Shown here piece after piece: positions 12,072 to 32,656 of a DNA stretch of 59,989 nucleotides. The position numbers and the translations under genes were made by a program. Position 1 is the first letter of the stretch; every line of letters starts with the position of its first letter. The DNA comes from Acidobacteriota bacterium (GTDB taxonomy: Bacteria > Acidobacteriota > Vicinamibacteria > Vicinamibacterales > CAVVIG01), in the NCBI GenBank assembly GCA_025463215.1, contig JAOBWF010000211.1, positions 1 to 59,989 of the forward strand. Direction: 5' to 3'. A model generated the notes under the pieces. That model was not told where the DNA came from. It worked only from the letters and a program-made list of their open reading frames with translations, and did no database searches.

Positions 12072-13907
12072 TTAGGCCGAGCACTCGCCGTCCATGACCT
12101 CCGGCGCGAACTCGGCCGCTTCGGCGAGGTCGATGAAATCGGTCGCGACCGCGTCCCCCGGCAGCAGCTTCTCGAGATCCGCGAGCCGCGCCTTGACCAC
12201 GTCGAGCTCGACCCGGCCGAAGAATGTCGTCGCCGTCTCGCCCGCCTGGTGATCGGCGGCGTAGAGATCGATCAGCCGCTCGACCACCTGCGGCACCCGC
12301 CGCGCCGGGATCTTGGCCGCGAGCCGGCCGAAGGAGGCGCCGCGATCGTGGGCGCCGCCGCCGATCATGACGAAGTACTGGGGCACCGCGCGCGACCCGA
12401 GCCGGCGCACGCTGCCCTGGAAGCCGAACGTCGCGATGTGGTGCAGGCCGCAGCCGTTCGGGCAGCCGCTGATCTTGATGCGCGCGCCGTCGGCCGCGGC
12501 AATCAGGTCCGGCCGCGCGCGCAGCTGCTCCTCGAGCAGGCGTCCGAGGCCGCGCGACTGCGTCACCGCGAGGCGGCAGGTCTCCGCACCCGGGCAGCTG
12601 GTGACGTCGGCCACCGTCCCCGATTCCGCCAGTCCGAGCCCCGCCGCCGCCAGCCGGCGATACAGCTGCCGCACGTCGCAGGCGTTGATCCACCGGAACA
12701 GCAGATTCTGGTCCGCGGTCACGCGGATGGTGCCGTCGCCATAGGCGCGCGCCAGCTCGCCGATGACGCGCATCTGGTCGCTCGTCAGATCGCCCAGCGG
12801 CACCGCGGCAATCGCCATCACGTAGCCGAACTGCTTTTGCGGCCGGACGTTCGTGACGCGCCAGCGCGCGTACGCGTCGTCGCCAACCTGCAGCATCGGC
12901 ACGATCACCGGCGTGATGCCCGGGCCGGAAATCCGGCCGGCGGCGACGCGCGACGCGACGTGGCCGACCGACGGCGACGAATCCTTCACCCATTCCGGCC
13001 GCGCCTCGGTGGCCGGCGGCTCGACCTCGAGCGTCGGCACCTGGCCGCGCAACCGGCAGGAGGTCAGCTCGCGGTCGTACTCCTCGCGCCAGCGCGTCCA
13101 GCCGAGGGTCTTGATCATGAATTTCATGCGGTTGCGCTGCTTGTGCTCGTAGTCGCCGAGCCGTTTGAAGACGCGCAGCACCGCTTCCGCGGCCCGCAGG
13201 ATTTCCGACGCCGGCAGGAATTCGTGCAGCAGCCCGGCCGACGTCGTCATGATCGCGGTGCCACCGCCGGCGGTCACGCGGAAGCCGCGGCCGCCGTCCG
13301 GGCCGACGACCGCGCGGAAGCCGAGATCGTTGACGCCGGTCGCGATGTGATCGGTCTCGCACCCTTCGAACGCGACCTTGAACTTGCGCGGCAGCGTCGA
13401 GCTGAGCGGATGCCGCAGCAAGAAGCGCGTCAGCGCCTCCGCGTACGGCGTGACGTCGAACCGCTCGTCGGCGGCAACACCCGCGTACGGGCAGGCCGTA
13501 ATGTTGCGCACCGAATTGCCGCACGCCTCGCGCGTCGTCATTCCGGCATCAGCGAGGCGATGCATGGCGGCCTCGACGTCGTGCAGCTTGACGAAATGGA
13601 ACTGGACGTTCTGGCGGGTCGTGATGTGACCGAAGCCCCGCGAGTAGCGCTCGCCGACGTCGGCGAGGGCGTCGAGCTGCTCGCTGGCGAGGACGCCCTG
13701 CGGAATCTTGACCCGCAGCATCTGCGCGTCGGCGGCCTGGCGCTGGCCGTAGGTGCCGCGCACCAGCCGGAACGCGCGCCATTGATCCGGCGTCAGCTCG
13801 CCGCGCTCGTAGCGCTCGAGCGTGGTCACGAACTCGTCGATGTCGGCCTCGTTCGCGAACGAGAGCCGCGCGCGGCCGAAGGTTTTTTGATCGTCAACAA
13901 CCGACAT
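12072..13907 (-). CDS. Ferredoxin-type sulfite/nitrite reductase (siroheme, 4Fe-4S)
   Basis: 611 residues with the two-fold NirA/SirA architecture (ferredoxin-like half domain, then the siroheme/FeS domain, repeated). The cluster ligands are Cys438, Cys444, Cys482 and Cys486 (SCPGAETC and GCPNGC), the standard siroheme-4Fe4S motif. The six-electron reduction of sulfite to sulfide or nitrite to ammonia cannot be separated by motif alone. Sulfite is favoured because the gene follows the siroheme genes behind a cysteine-codon leader. ATG 13907 is preceded by GAGGT. It is the last gene of the operon with the methyltransferase and dehydrogenase, with a 25-bp gap. Confidence 0.93.
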   Translation of the reverse strand: MSVVDDQKTFGRARLSFANEADIDEFVTTLERYERGELTPDQWRAFRLVRGTYGQRQAADAQMLRVKIPQGVLASEQLDALADVGERYSRGFGHITTRQNVQFHFVKLHDVEAAMHRLADAGMTTREACGNSVRNITACPYAGVAADERFDVTPYAEALTRFLLRHPLSSTLPRKFKVAFEGCETDHIATGVNDLGFRAVVGPDGGRGFRVTAGGGTAIMTTSAGLLHEFLPASEILRAAEAVLRVFKRLGDYEHKQRNRMKFMIKTLGWTRWREEYDRELTSCRLRGQVPTLEVEPPATEARPEWVKDSSPSVGHVASRVAAGRISGPGITPVIVPMLQVGDDAYARWRVTNVRPQKQFGYVMAIAAVPLGDLTSDQMRVIGELARAYGDGTIRVTADQNLLFRWINACDVRQLYRRLAAAGLGLAESGTVADVTSCPGAETCRLAVTQSRGLGRLLEEQLRARPDLIAAADGARIKISGCPNGCGLHHIATFGFQGSVRRLGSRAVPQYFVMIGGGAHDRGASFGRLAAKIPARRVPQVVERLIDLYAADHQAGETATTFFGRVELDVVKARLADLEKLLPGDAVATDFIDLAEAAEFAPEVMDGECSA

Positions 13908-13914
13908 AACACCT

Positions 13915-13963
13915 CAACTCAGAATCTAGAATTCAGAATTTCGAATTCAGCATTCGAGTACTC
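13915..13963. repeat. Degenerate heptamer array B (GAAnTCn)
   Basis: Seven 7-nt units on the plus strand: CAACTCA, GAATCTA, GAATTCA, GAATTTC, GAATTCA, GCATTCG, AGTACTC. The GAAnTCn consensus is the same as in array A, 3.1 kb away. It covers the end of the uroporphyrinogen methyltransferase frame and the gap before the reductase. Confidence 0.75.
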
Positions 13964-14715
13964 ATGTCAACTTCAGAATCTTGACTTCCTGCTTCCTGGA
14001 GTCCGATTGCCACCACATCCCCGATGACGATCGTGCCGGCGCCGCGTGGCAAAGCGTCGGCCGCGACCGCATCGGTGGCGAGCTGATCGAGCGTGCCGCG
14101 CCAGACGCTCTGGCCGGCGCGCGACGCGTCGACGATCACCGCCGTTGGCGTGCCGCGCGACCAGCCGCGATCGATCAGCCGGCAGGCGATGGCCGCCGAC
14201 CGCCCAAGCCCCATCAGCACGACGACGGTGACGCCGTTGGGCTGCAGCTGCCCGATCGCCGACGCGAACGCCTCCTCTTCGTGACCGGACACGACGAGGA
14301 ATGCCGACGCGACGCCGCGGTGGGTTACCGGAATGCCGGCGGACGCCGGCGCCGCAATCGCGCTGCTGATCCCCGGTACGACGTCGTAGGAAATGCCGGC
14401 GTGCTGCAGCGCCAGCGCTTCCTCGCCCCCCCGGCCGAACACGAATGGGTCCCCCCCCTTGAGCCGGACGACGCGGCGGCCGCGGCGGGCGGCGCGGATC
14501 ATCAGCGCCTGAATCGCGGTCTGGGTCATCGCGTGGCGGCCCGCGCGCTTGCCGACGTAGAAGCGCTGCGCCCGGCGGGCGAGCTTGAGGACGCGCTCGT
14601 CGACGAGCGCGTCGTAGAGCACGAAGTCGGCGGCGCGCAGGCGCGCGACCGCGGTGCGCGTCAGCAGCCCCGGATCCCCCGGCCCGGCGCCGACCAGCGA
14701 GACATGTCCCTTCAC
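13933..14715 (-). CDS. cobA: Uroporphyrinogen-III C-methyltransferase (SUMT)
   Basis: Adds two SAM methyl groups to uroporphyrinogen III to give precorrin-2, the first step to siroheme. Family motifs are SLVGAGPGDPGLLT at the N-terminus, YVGKRAG, VRLKGGDPFVFGRGGEE and PGISSAIAAPASAGIPVTHR. GTG 14715 overlaps the upstream stop by 4 bp (GTGA) with GGAGGA 9 nt upstream, so it was chosen over earlier in-frame starts. The normal end is near IVIGDVVAIG; the last ~20 residues are encoded by heptamer array B and look accidental. The neighbours make siroheme for the adjacent reductase, not cobalamin. Confidence 0.94.
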   Translation of the reverse strand: MKGHVSLVGAGPGDPGLLTRTAVARLRAADFVLYDALVDERVLKLARRAQRFYVGKRAGRHAMTQTAIQALMIRAARRGRRVVRLKGGDPFVFGRGGEEALALQHAGISYDVVPGISSAIAAPASAGIPVTHRGVASAFLVVSGHEEEAFASAIGQLQPNGVTVVVLMGLGRSAAIACRLIDRGWSRGTPTAVIVDASRAGQSVWRGTLDQLATDAVAADALPRGAGTIVIGDVVAIGLQEAGSQDSEVDMSTRMLNSKF

Positions 14716-15389
14716 AGCCACGAGTCCTCCGGTCCGTGCAGCCACGGCACGCGCGGCCCCTTGTCGGCGGCGGCGAGCGCGGCAATGTGGACGATGCCTG
14801 TCTCGGCGTGCTCCGCGGTCGCCGCGGTTTTTTCTTCGTCGTAAAGCGCGTTCAGCGCCGCCAGCAGCCGCGGCTTGCGCGCGGCCATCGGCACGCCGTC
14901 GCGCCGCCACGCGACGCGCGCCGCCCGTGCCTGCCACATCCAGGCGGCGAGATCGCGCGGGAGCAGGGCGTCCACCCCTTCGCGCAGCAGCGCGGTCAGC
15001 GCGGGGGCGGCACCGCTTGTCGAGATCGCGACCGTGACACCGTCCCGCCGCACCACCCCGCTCAGAAACGCCGTGGCGTTCGCCGGGTCGTCGACCGCAT
15101 TCACGAAGATGCGCCGCTGCTCCGCGGCGTCGGCCACCTGCCGGTTGACCTCAGGCGTGGCCGCCGCGACGACGAGCCAGGCGCCGTCGAGATCGGCGGG
15201 TGCGAACCGCCGTCGCGACAGCGTGATCGACTGGTGCGCAATCTCGTCCGTGACCTCCGGGGCGACGAGGTGGACCGAGGCGCCGGCCGCGAGCAGTTGG
15301 CGCAGCTTCGCGGTCGCGACCGGTCCGCCGCCGACGAGCAGGACGTCGCGCCCGGTGAGGTTGAGGAACAACGGCAATAAATCAGGCAT
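14712..15389 (-). CDS. Precorrin-2 dehydrogenase / sirohydrochlorin ferrochelatase (CysG N-terminal type)
   Basis: 225 residues. The opening MPDLLPLFLNLTGRDVLLVGGGPVA is split here as MPDLLPLFLNL and the NAD-binding VLLVGGGPVA. VNAVDDPANATAF and the ISTSGAAPALTALLR segment are characteristic of Met8p/CysG-N enzymes, which oxidise precorrin-2 and insert iron. The fusion found in E. coli CysG is split here into two overlapping genes. The start ATG 15389 lies 2 nt after the U-tract of a terminator hairpin and has no Shine-Dalgarno, so expression should depend on antitermination. An upstream in-frame start at 15497 would run through the hairpin and is unlikely. Confidence 0.93.
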   Translation of the reverse strand: MPDLLPLFLNLTGRDVLLVGGGPVATAKLRQLLAAGASVHLVAPEVTDEIAHQSITLSRRRFAPADLDGAWLVVAAATPEVNRQVADAAEQRRIFVNAVDDPANATAFLSGVVRRDGVTVAISTSGAAPALTALLREGVDALLPRDLAAWMWQARAARVAWRRDGVPMAARKPRLLAALNALYDEEKTAATAEHAETGIVHIAALAAADKGPRVPWLHGPEDSWL

Positions 15390-15390
15390 A

Positions 15391-15430
15391 AAACACAAAA
15401 GGCCCGGGAAGCTGAAGAGCCTCCCGGGCC
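15391..15430 (-). terminator. Attenuator-type intrinsic terminator before the siroheme operon
   Basis: Perfect 9-bp stem ggcccggga (15401-15409) / tcccgggcc (15422-15430), 12-nt loop, followed on the minus strand by TTTTGTGTTT. It lies 29 nt after the leader-peptide stop and ends at the start codon of the dehydrogenase gene, so it can only act as a conditional (attenuator) terminator. The stem is nearly the same as that at 32464-32491. Confidence 0.85.
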
Positions 15431-15459
15431 ATGAGTCTGAGTTCGGTTGCTGGATTAGA

Positions 15460-15567
15460 TCATCGCGTGATCGCCGATCCGCAAGTGAAGAGACCATTGG
15501 CGCAGGGGCTCGCGGGGAGCCCGCAGCAACAGCACGTACACAAGCAGGTCGTCAGACCACGGAACAC
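15460..15567 (-). CDS. Polycysteine leader peptide 1 (35 aa)
   Basis: GTG 15567 to TGA 15460, 35 codons. Cysteines are at positions 8, 10, 12, 13, 14, 15, 22 and 29, with six Cys codons in eight (TGC TTG TGT ACG TGC TGT TGC TGC). The start lies 9 nt after the -10, so the mRNA is essentially leaderless. A GGGCTC/GAGCCC hairpin directly follows the Cys run inside the ORF. The peptide precedes a terminator and then siroheme/sulfite-reductase genes. Ribosome stalling at Cys codons when Cys-tRNA is scarce would be expected to favour read-through; that mechanism is inferred. Leaderless polycysteine ORFs are known cysteine attenuators in mycobacteria. Confidence 0.85.
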   Translation of the reverse strand: MFRGLTTCLCTCCCCGLPASPCANGLFTCGSAITR

Positions 15568-15576
15568 GATGTGTCT

Positions 15577-15606
15577 TTTTTACTCCGTGCCGCCGGCCGC
15601 CGTCAA
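15577..15606 (-). promoter_or_regulatory. Promoter of leader 1 / siroheme operon
   Basis: Minus strand -35 TTGACG (15601-15606), 18-bp spacer, -10 TAAAAA (15577-15582), then 9 nt to the leader GTG. It shares the intergenic region with the rightward aminopeptidase gene. Confidence 0.65.
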
Positions 15607-15628
15607 GTTTTCTCGTTACACTGGAACC

Positions 15629-18226
<2,598 letters not shown>

Positions 18227-30953: not shown

Positions 30954-31271
30954 TTACGGAATCCACTGCCCGTTGGAATCAGCCGCAGCTGGTCGCCGGA
31001 AAAGGACGGCCTGACGATAGAAGGCGCGGAACAGCGGATCGGTCAGCAGTTCGCGGCGCCGGTGCGACAGACCGCAGCGCCGGCGGCGCTCGCGACCACG
31101 CGGCGCATCCGGCAGGATCTCGAGCTGCCATTGCCGAACTCGCTCGCGGCTCACACCGAACTCGTCGGCGATCGCGGCGAAGGTTACGCACGGCTGGCGA
31201 AACAACGCCACCAGGCGCGCGCGCGCCCCGGTGCCGTAACGGTCCTCGAAGACGTCCGTTACGCCAGCCAC
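30954..31271 (-). CDS. Small HTH DNA-binding protein downstream of yeiH
   Basis: 105 residues if started at GTG 31271, overlapping the yeiH stop by 13 bp. The centre reads VTFAAIADEFGVSRERVRQW, which is a sigma-region-4-like or phage-type helix-turn-helix. An Arg-rich basic stretch (RGRERRRRCG) and a C-terminal LTDPLFRAFYRQA helix follow. No catalytic motif. The family is unknown to me. The overlap suggests translational coupling with the exporter gene; it could be a regulator of the cluster. Confidence 0.65.
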   Translation of the reverse strand: MAGVTDVFEDRYGTGARARLVALFRQPCVTFAAIADEFGVSRERVRQWQLEILPDAPRGRERRRRCGLSHRRRELLTDPLFRAFYRQAVLFRRPAAADSNGQWIP

Positions 31272-32350
31272 TTCGCGGCACCGAGAACAAGCGCCAGCGT
31301 CAGCGCCGCGATCGCGCACTCCCCCACGACGCCCACGATCAACGGCCGCCACCCCTGATTCGACAGCACGCGCAGGTTGGTGCGCAGACCAATGCCCGCG
31401 AAACTGAATAGAAAGGCCCACCGCGACAGGTTCGCCAGGTCAGCCGACTCGGCGCGTGAAAAAGCGCCGACGGTGGCGAAGACGGAGATCCCGAGGAACC
31501 CGAGCACGAACTTCGGAAATTTGTTCCACAAGAAGGTGGTCTTGTCCCCGATCGCGGCGGCGCCGCCGCGGCGCACCCAGTACAGCGCGTAGCCGAGGAC
31601 GACGAACCCGATCGTCGCGTTCCGCGCGGTCTTGGCCAGCACCGCGAACTTCCCGGCGGCGTCCGAGTACAGCGCGCCCGCCGCCGTGGCCTCGGCGGTG
31701 TTGTCGACCGCGAGTCCGACCCACAGTCCATACGCTTGATCGCTCATACCCAGGGCGTGACCGATGAGCGGAAACGCCACCAGACTCACCGCGCCCAGTG
31801 CGAGGATCGCCGCGATCGCGTATGACGCGTCCTCATCGTCCGCATCAATCGCCCCTTTCGCCGCGATGATCGCCGAGACGCCGCACACGGAAGCGCCGAT
31901 CGCCAGGAGGCTGATCAATTTTGGCGGCAGCCCGAACGCGCGGCCGAGCCCGGTCATGATCACCATCGCGAGTAGGAGCTCGACGAATACGCACGCGAGA
32001 CTGACGCCGCCCAGCTTGGCGACATCGCCCAGCACGAACCGCACGCCGAGGAGCACAATCCCGGTCTTCAGCCAGAACTCGTAGGTATCGACGCCGGCTT
32101 CGCAGACCCTCGGCACGCCGACGATGTTGGAAACGATCAAGCCGAAGACAATCGCCCAGAGGACGTACTCGATGTTCGGCAGCGTCAGGTGGTGCGCCCG
32201 GCCGTACGCGGCGATTGCCTGCTCGGTGAACTTGCCGGCATAACCGATGACGCCGAGCAGAAGGAGGCCGGGCACGAGGTTGGCGGCGCGGCGCGCCGGC
32301 GAGAGCGCCAGCCTCGGCGCGGCGATCACGACCGGCGTAACGGCCGTCAC
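31259..32350 (-). CDS. YeiH-family putative sulfate exporter (UPF0324)
   Basis: 363 residues from GTG 32350, whose GTGA overlaps the stop of the 30-codon gene upstream. About ten transmembrane helices, with family segments NIVGVPRVCEAGVDTYEFWLKTGIVLLG, of which GVDTYEFWLKTGIVLLG is the most conserved, ASVCGVSAIIAA and GLRTNLRVLSNQGWRP. YeiH-type proteins are annotated as putative sulfate exporters and are often LysR/CysB-linked. Their transport substrate is unproven. It is expressed behind polycysteine leader 2 and its terminator, which supports a sulfur or sulfonate role. Confidence 0.88.
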   Translation of the reverse strand: MTAVTPVVIAAPRLALSPARRAANLVPGLLLLGVIGYAGKFTEQAIAAYGRAHHLTLPNIEYVLWAIVFGLIVSNIVGVPRVCEAGVDTYEFWLKTGIVLLGVRFVLGDVAKLGGVSLACVFVELLLAMVIMTGLGRAFGLPPKLISLLAIGASVCGVSAIIAAKGAIDADDEDASYAIAAILALGAVSLVAFPLIGHALGMSDQAYGLWVGLAVDNTAEATAAGALYSDAAGKFAVLAKTARNATIGFVVLGYALYWVRRGGAAAIGDKTTFLWNKFPKFVLGFLGISVFATVGAFSRAESADLANLSRWAFLFSFAGIGLRTNLRVLSNQGWRPLIVGVVGECAIAALTLALVLGAAKWLA

Positions 32351-32439
32351 CACGCCACCCCGGTAATTGCGCCGAGCTTCACGAGGGCGACGGCCAGCGC
32401 CGCAACAATCACCGCCCACCAGTCACGGGAGAGTTTCAC
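32347..32439 (-). CDS. 30-residue membrane peptide, translationally coupled to yeiH
   Basis: GTG 32439, with GGAGGT 7 nt upstream, directly after the terminator U-tract. The sequence is VKLSRDWWAVIVAALAVAL then VKLGAITGVAW: one transmembrane helix with a positive N-end. Its TGA overlaps the GTG of yeiH by 4 bp. The strong Shine-Dalgarno, export-like composition and coupling argue for a real gene, perhaps an accessory subunit of the exporter. It is too short for automatic annotation. Confidence 0.75.
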   Translation of the reverse strand: MKLSRDWWAVIVAALAVALVKLGAITGVAW

Positions 32440-32450
32440 AACACCCACCT

Positions 32451-32491
32451 CCAAAAAGAAAAAGGCCCGGAAAGCGTGAAGCCTTCCGGGC
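32451..32491 (-). terminator. Attenuator-type intrinsic terminator before yeiH
   Basis: Stem ggcccggaa (32464-32472) / ttccgggcc (32484-32492 region), 9 bp, followed on the minus strand by TTTTTCTTTTTGG, whose GG starts the Shine-Dalgarno of the 30-codon gene. Stem sequence nearly the same as the siroheme-operon attenuator. It lies 37 nt after the leader-2 stop. Confidence 0.87.
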
Positions 32492-32528
32492 CCTGCAACT
32501 GTTCGAGTGCGATTCGTGCTTGAAGAAC

Positions 32529-32618
32529 TTAGGCGGGCACGATCCTCGTAGACACAGCGCGGCGCTCGGAGGCGTTGGCTCCGGCGCAACAACACGCGCA
32601 GGTCGAGGTCGTGAACAC
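32529..32618 (-). CDS. Polycysteine leader peptide 2 (29 aa)
   Basis: GTG 32618 to TAA 32529. Cys at 7, 9, 10 and 11 (codons TGC GCG TGT TGT TGC). The first two codons GTG TTC equal those of leader 1, and a Thr-rich stretch precedes the Cys run in both. An in-frame TAA lies 12 nt upstream, so GTG is the first possible start. It begins 8 nt after a -10 hexamer. Placed before a terminator and then the membrane peptide and yeiH. Interpreted as a cysteine-sensing leader. Confidence 0.82.
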   Translation of the reverse strand: MFTTSTCACCCAGANASERRAVSTRIVPA

Positions 32619-32626
32619 GATGATGT

Positions 32627-32656
32627 CTTATGGCACGGGATTACGAACCCTGTCAA
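32627..32656 (-). promoter_or_regulatory. Promoter of leader 2 / yeiH operon
   Basis: Minus strand -35 TTGACA (32651-32656), 18-bp spacer, -10 CATAAG (32627-32632), 8 nt to the GTG. It lies inside the last codons of the upstream FAD gene, whose TAA is part of the -10. Confidence 0.7.

Follow-up and report, generated by a model that had tools for sequence, protein, structure and literature searches.

A cysteine-codon leader with the anatomy of a trp-type attenuator before sulfur operons of Vicinamibacterales

Introduction

The trp, his and leu attenuators of Escherichia coli and its relatives consist of a leader ORF with a codon run, 1:2, 2:3 and 3:4 structures, and biosynthetic genes downstream. 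In mycobacteria, leaderless short ORFs of consecutive Cys codons lie before cysteine and sulfur genes and are cysteine-responsive (Canestrari 2020, doi 10.1111/mmi.14498, via PMC13236596 and PMC9031893; also PMC4633059); they are described as translational attenuation (PMC13236596), and they had been predicted without conserved terminator hairpins (PMC1262725).

The nearest transcriptional case for cysteine is the uORFC-8-2 motif upstream of cysS in Rhodobacterales, in which tandem Cys codons in a leader ORF are combined with stems and an intrinsic terminator, and for which attenuation through Cys-tRNA has been proposed (PMC8632094). Streptomyces has leaderless attenuator peptides, some with intrinsic terminators (LeuL2, TrpL1 and IlvL), but these serve other amino acids and none is named as a cysteine leader (PMC8079986). 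In a 2010 survey, almost no predicted acidobacterial attenuator had an assigned function (PMC2965389), and the literature searched here (open-licence papers only) yielded no description of a cysteine-specific, leaderless, intrinsic-terminator regulon in Acidobacteriota.

A first-pass annotation of the DNA studied here (the window, meaning the whole 59,989-nucleotide stretch, from an acidobacterial genome of the order Vicinamibacterales) had proposed a polycysteine attenuator in front of siroheme and sulfite reductase genes. This reading was supported by each of the comparative tests that the annotation had proposed, with the transcription start, termination and the response to cysteine remaining inferred.

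Anatomy of the leader and its operon

The leader and the three genes behind it are composed of the following features:

15578..15606, minus strand: leader promoter, with TTGACG at 15606-15601, a 17-nt spacer and GTAAAA at 15583-15578 (from the sequence and the spacing of TTGAC in relatives)
15460..15567, minus strand: leader ORF of 35 codons, VFRGLTTCLCTCCCCGLPASPCANGLFTCGSAITR and a stop, with a GTG start inferred to be at or near the transcript 5' end (Cys-rich orthologues in most genomes of the family)
15523..15546, minus strand: Cys codon run and proposed stall site, C-L-C-T-C-C-C-C, or 6 Cys in 8 codons (codon conservation in 16 leaders)
15517..15522, minus strand: segment 1, GGGCTC, the hairpin 5' arm, which a ribosome stalling at the last Cys codons would cover
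15499..15511, minus strand: segment 2, GAGCCCCTGCGCC, partner of segment 1 (hairpin) or of segment 3 (antiterminator)
15417..15430, minus strand: segment 3, GGCCCGGGAGGCTC, terminator 5' arm and 3' strand of the antiterminator
15391..15413, minus strand: segment 4, AGCTTCCCGGGCC, with the U-rich tail TTTTGTGTTT, completing the intrinsic terminator (covariation)
14712..15389, minus strand: controlled gene 1, precorrin-2 dehydrogenase (CysG N-terminal domain; PF13241, PF14824; TIGR01470)
13933..14715, minus strand: controlled gene 2, uroporphyrinogen-III C-methyltransferase, SUMT (CysG C-terminal domain; PF00590; TIGR01469)
12072..13907, minus strand: controlled gene 3, siroheme-dependent nitrite/sulfite reductase (PF01077, PF03460; the best NCBIfam match, the NirA family, is below cut-off)

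The leader ORF, whose product begins VFRGLTTCLCTCCCCG, opens with a GTG at 15567, 10 nt past the -10 hexamer; directly after the Cys run, and still inside the ORF, GGGCTC (15522-15517) and GAGCCC (15511-15506) form a small hairpin. The stop codon TGA (15462-15460) is separated by a 29-nt gap from an intrinsic terminator at 15430-15401, which has nine perfect pairs, or 13 when G.U and inner pairs are included, and is followed by TTTTGTGTTTT. Its U-rich tail runs into the ATG (15389) of the precorrin-2 dehydrogenase gene, which has no Shine-Dalgarno sequence. The first-pass annotation had placed all of these elements, from promoter to gene start, essentially where we find them in the sequence, the -10 element being weak. 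GTAAAA is weak by itself. As a strict consensus scan of the window leader found no promoter, the promoter was judged from conservation: in most of 81 leaders TTGAC precedes the start codon of the leader by a constant 37-40 nt. Rfam searches gave no match to the leader in the window (14600-16200, up to E=1), in the second copy described below (gathering level) or in ten regulon loci, and a riboswitch or other known RNA family at the leader was rejected on that basis.

Controlled gene 3 cannot be assigned to nitrite or sulfite from its sequence alone, since NirA is the closest NCBIfam match yet falls below the cut-off; given its Cys leader, we infer that it is most likely an assimilatory sulfite reductase. 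Beyond this gene, a SAM-I (S-box) riboswitch (RF00162, 83.5 bits, 11916-11806, minus strand) precedes hom-thrC, and methionine-side control directly adjoins the cysteine-controlled operon. With their own SAM riboswitch in front, hom and thrC are probably a separate unit outside the Cys-controlled operon.

Conservation upstream of cysG

A search of 162 genomes of the order located the precorrin-2 dehydrogenase gene in 105; Luteitalea, a genus among the near matches, also belongs to this order. Short sense ORFs with at least four Cys codons in six were present in 34 of 124 unique upstream regions, versus none of the 124 antisense regions and one of 1,240 shuffles. Within the window's own family, the leader precedes most cysG genes for which the upstream DNA is complete (for example MGQSTCMCSCCCCG and VIGMSTCICCCCCC); part of its absence elsewhere is explained by its position upstream of a preceding cysH or TauE gene of the same operon. 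The relatives keep the run of Cys codons, the place of the start codon and the hairpin, whose conservation the first-pass annotation had proposed to test. In an alignment of 16 leaders the core Cys codons never varied in their T and G, whereas their third positions were C or T, which would be expected if codons, and not a nucleotide motif, are conserved. The compensatory changes that the annotation had suggested looking for were seen in the terminator (3:4), at four of 13 pairs within the family versus 0.8 expected. From the end of the Cys run to the terminator the distance is 69-95 nt, with a median of 86 (96 leaders).

Two family members (L009 and L019) retain the promoter and terminator upstream of cysG without the Cys run and hairpin 1:2, which may reflect either a natural loss of control or an assembly fault. 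Two records titled Myxococcales/Deltaproteobacteria (L051 and L055) have a Cys-rich ORF (MNRMCACACCCRPG...) before cysG; a scan of L051 for a terminator found none, and these ORFs are possibly a separate version without a terminator.

Single-genome evidence alone would not exclude a chance ORF next to an ordinary terminator between divergent genes, without any regulatory link, and in this GC-rich window spurious ORFs are many. Such a coincidence is contradicted by the count of 34 of 124 against none in antisense and by the partner-swap test of pairing 2:3 described below, and conservation, frame, spacing, complementarity and gene context all speak against it, leaving it next to no credence. 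A short ORF with five Cys in six codons never arose in 5,000 dinucleotide shuffles of the leader region, and the predicted fold of the complete leader is 4.4 SD more stable than those of dinucleotide shuffles. On the strength of these tests, and of the conserved run, start and terminator, the leader is a genuine feature that exceeds chance.

Start of leader translation

Among the 81 leaders with TTGAC, the in-frame start codons peak at 37-40 nt from the first base of this motif, 71 being in frame and 4 out of frame. GTG is the start codon in 50 of 70 leaders, ATG in 15 and TTG in 5; Shine-Dalgarno-like words precede the start in only 16 of 70, some of these words being the -10 itself. Assuming a standard spacer and -10 element, this spacing implies a 5' UTR of about 0-4 nt, although no transcription start has been mapped. 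Since the start codon lies at this distance and in frame with the Cys run, translation of the leader is inferred, not measured, to be leaderless or near-leaderless.

Competing pairings

The leader has three rival pairings, namely hairpin 1:2 after the run, antiterminator 2:3 and terminator 3:4. In the window, the 2:3 helix joins GAGCCCCTGCGCC (15511-15499) to GGCCCGGGAGGCTC (15430-15417). When an RNA that lacked segment 1, to mimic a stall, and stopped after segment 3 was folded, the antiterminator was predicted, and adding segment 4 turned the prediction into the terminator; the antiterminator that the first-pass annotation had proposed to seek by folding is therefore present, as judged by this fold and by the partner-swap test.

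In the family alignment, 87% of the cells were paired in 2:3, but there were no double changes and no covariation signal above shuffles, nor did GGUC:GACC show a signal above shuffles, either because the family is too uniform there or because the alignment slips. For 2:3 we turned instead to exchanging partners among distant leaders. Complementarity of segment 2 to its own terminator arm exceeded that of shuffled sequences in 34 of 37 cysG leaders (Wilcoxon p 5e-9), and complementarity to the terminator arm did so in 52 of 60 further leaders (p 2e-9). Among 53 dissimilar leaders, pairing with their own partners gave -19.98 kcal/mol versus -16.62 +/- 0.39 kcal/mol for permuted partners, with none of 20,000 permutations as good; the extension of the 2:3 helix, often GGUC:GACC and in some leaders GUUCAGG:CCUGAAC, passed the same test (0/20,000). 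The leaders share ancestry, so these p-values are optimistic. The putative 2:3 pairing thus has strong support, which comes from the comparison of distant leaders and not from covariation within the family.

Segment 2 begins a median of 11 nt past the Cys run, which by footprint geometry is just beyond the reach of a ribosome whose A site holds the last Cys codon. In an equilibrium model of 36 leaders, a stall increased the mean number of nucleotides paired in 2:3 from 7.1 to 11.6. The window's own leader, modelled without segment 4, favours 2:3 in either state, with 13.4 paired nt in the absence of a stall and 13.5 in its presence; the choice in this leader would therefore have to be kinetic, hairpin 1:2 forming before segment 3 exists.

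A second copy before yeiH

The window contains a second copy of the element, spanning 32618-32464 and composed of the following:

32651..32656, minus strand: -35 element TTGACA (sequence)
32529..32618, minus strand: leader ORF VFTTSTCACCCAGANASERRAVSTRIVPA and a stop, with its GTG start 38 nt from TTGACA
32464..32492, minus strand: intrinsic terminator GGCCCGGAAGGC ttcac GCTTTCCGGGCC, then a U-rich tail
31259..32350, minus strand: YeiH family putative sulfate/sulfite exporter controlled by this copy (PF03601; open frame 31259-32419; TIGR00698 below cut-off)

A 30-codon ORF, MKLSRDWWAVIVAALAVALVKLGAITGVAW, is located between the second terminator and yeiH (32439-32347, minus strand), and is likely to encode a small membrane protein or a detached N-terminus of YeiH.

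The second copy also bears on an alternative in which attenuation is translational, as in mycobacteria, or Rho-dependent, so that the Cys ORF would govern ribosome access and the hairpin would mainly hide the start codon. The mycobacterial precedents, which are described as translation attenuation and lack conserved terminators, and the ATG at 15389, only 11 nt after the stem and without a Shine-Dalgarno sequence, are compatible with it. Nearly all leaders, however, have a canonical intrinsic terminator with a U tract, many regulon members start their gene at least 40 nt beyond the hairpin, and in the second copy the Shine-Dalgarno sequence GGAGG lies past the U tract. Masking of the start codon cannot therefore be the common mechanism, given the distant gene starts and the position of this GGAGG, and we consider this alternative improbable.

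Distribution across the order

The order was searched with a pattern of three Cys codons followed 70-100 nt later by a GCCCGG/CCGGGC terminator. We obtained 128 matches, a figure that includes repeat counts of overlapping Cys runs, versus 10 for the reversed pattern; the matches came from 75 of 162 genomes. Outside the order, three of four sampled genomes of the same class had matches, and the rest of the phylum was near the control level. Four Cys codons alone were uninformative in the window's own genome (61 matches versus 81 for the reversed pattern), and it was the addition of the terminator that made the pattern specific; with this strict pattern, the genome has two matches, both in the window, and no further poly-Cys leader.

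We read 60 matches, mostly not directly before cysG, and set about 15 others aside by eye as unlike leaders. The first genes behind the 60 encode CysD (15), TauE (11), CysH (9), YeiH (5), CysK (2), CysG (2), SUMT (1), NMT1-like binding proteins (2) and a ThiF-rhodanese protein (1), as well as RimK-like ATP-grasp proteins (7), redoxins (3), a porin (1) and one unassigned product; the first nine of these classes are known sulfur genes, which the leader heads in 48 of the 60. The Cys codons and the terminator core of these matches were selected by the pattern, and the conserved regulon pattern is in this part chosen by the search itself, but the pattern set no condition on promoter spacing, start codon, 2:3 match or downstream genes. 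The first-pass annotation had assigned the element to siroheme and sulfite reductase genes; the element does not belong to one operon and is a regulon-wide device.

A RimK-like ATP-grasp gene carries a Cys leader in seven loci (L239, L240, L260, L277 and three others) and is a candidate for a role in thiol or sulfur metabolism. Three loci (L224, L225 and L237) have a Cys leader on a secreted-looking redoxin/TlpA-like protein of about 300-400 aa, and in L272 (genome G155, a single contig of 7,480,314 bases) a Cys leader precedes an NMT1-like ABC binding protein about 7 kb upstream of cysG.

The gene context also bears on a third alternative, an arrest peptide in which the nascent polycysteine chain would stall the ribosome in response to a metal such as copper or to redox state, instead of to Cys-tRNA charging. 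Cys-rich upstream ORFs answering other signals do exist, the CruR ORF of Bordetella being a Cu-responsive example, and redox has been raised for the mycobacterial ORFs as well. In the acidobacterial leaders, however, only the run of Cys codons is conserved, while the number of Cys (3-6) and the remaining peptide vary widely, unlike in arrest peptides, and the controlled genes make or import cysteine precursors; an arrest peptide is thus very improbable.

Comparison with described attenuators and proposed mechanism

Every structural criterion of a trp-type attenuator that could be tested was met: the leader ORF is rich in codons of the amino acid of its operon (six Cys in eight, with cysteine-pathway genes downstream), an intrinsic terminator lies between this ORF and the first gene, and an antiterminator that shares the terminator 5' arm is reachable upon a stall (without double changes within the family). 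The leader accordingly meets the description of a trp-type attenuator, with cysteine-dependent read-through being inferred. All the features listed above for the trp, his and leu attenuators are shared, but the acidobacterial leader differs from them in its Cys codon, in having no Shine-Dalgarno sequence and an inferred start close to or at the 5' end of the transcript, in a stop codon beyond segment 2 and in recurring ahead of numerous distinct sulfur operons within one group of genomes.

With the mycobacterial ORFs it has in common a short ORF of consecutive Cys codons before cysteine and sulfur genes, and a start that is leaderless or nearly so is inferred from its spacing, but it differs in possessing a conserved intrinsic terminator and an antiterminator that covaries between distant leaders. 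The mycobacterial group is described as attenuating translation with no intrinsic terminator; as the terminator is present and conserved here, the leader is not simply a member of that group. The parallel drawn in the first-pass annotation holds for the polycysteine attenuator reading, but not for an identical system, as the precedents are translational or lack terminators and the present leader is of the trp type. The uORFC-8-2 motif differs in having two Cys codons, an AUG start, a tRNA synthetase gene downstream, a range of one alphaproteobacterial order and no regulon, and a leaderless start goes unmentioned there (PMC8632094).

The observed anatomy, conservation, competing complementarities and sulfur gene context lead us to conclude that the leader is very probably a ribosome-mediated transcription attenuator sensing charged Cys-tRNA, although there are no expression data and the cysteine signal is itself inferred. 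The weak -10 element, the indifference of the window leader to a stall at equilibrium, the lack of double changes in 2:3 within the family and the two family members without the run count against this reading. In the proposed scheme RNA polymerase would initiate shortly ahead of the GTG, where a ribosome would load on the very 5' end without a Shine-Dalgarno sequence and trail the polymerase. With ample Cys-tRNA, the ribosome would clear the Cys run fast, segment 1 or the ribosome would hold segment 2 off segment 3, and terminator 3:4 would form, ending transcription before cysG. With scarce Cys-tRNA, it would stall on the last Cys codons and cover segment 1, allowing segment 2, about 11 nt past the run, to pair with segment 3; the terminator would be blocked and the siroheme and sulfite reductase genes transcribed. 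In leaders whose terminator directly adjoins the start codon, such as the one before cysG in the window, the switch may also expose that codon.

Significance

Cysteine attenuators are few so far, comprising terminator-less examples in actinobacteria and the two-codon motif at cysS in one alphaproteobacterial order. The kind of mechanism proposed here is already known; the surprise lies in its regulon-wide use, its leaderless start and the phylum, a combination that appears to be undescribed in the open-licence papers searched. The Cys leader suggests that the NirA-like gene reduces sulfite and not nitrite and may help to identify the unnamed genes that carry it, and it provides an experimental system for how ribosomes loading on a bare 5' end keep pace with the polymerase.

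A broader reading, which we hold only tentatively and with more doubt than confidence, is that in Vicinamibacteria copies of one leaderless Cys-codon attenuator acting in cis run the whole of sulfur assimilation (sulfate activation, PAPS reduction, siroheme and sulfite reductase, cysteine synthase, sulfite export and sulfonate uptake), replacing a dedicated regulator such as CysB or CymR. If this were true, the RimK-like ATP-grasp, redoxin and porin genes that carry a copy would be so far overlooked participants in thiol or sulfur metabolism. A complete cysteine switch of the trp type, begun without a Shine-Dalgarno sequence and recurring ahead of many sulfur operons in a soil phylum that has received little study, would present attenuation as a pathway-wide regulatory code.
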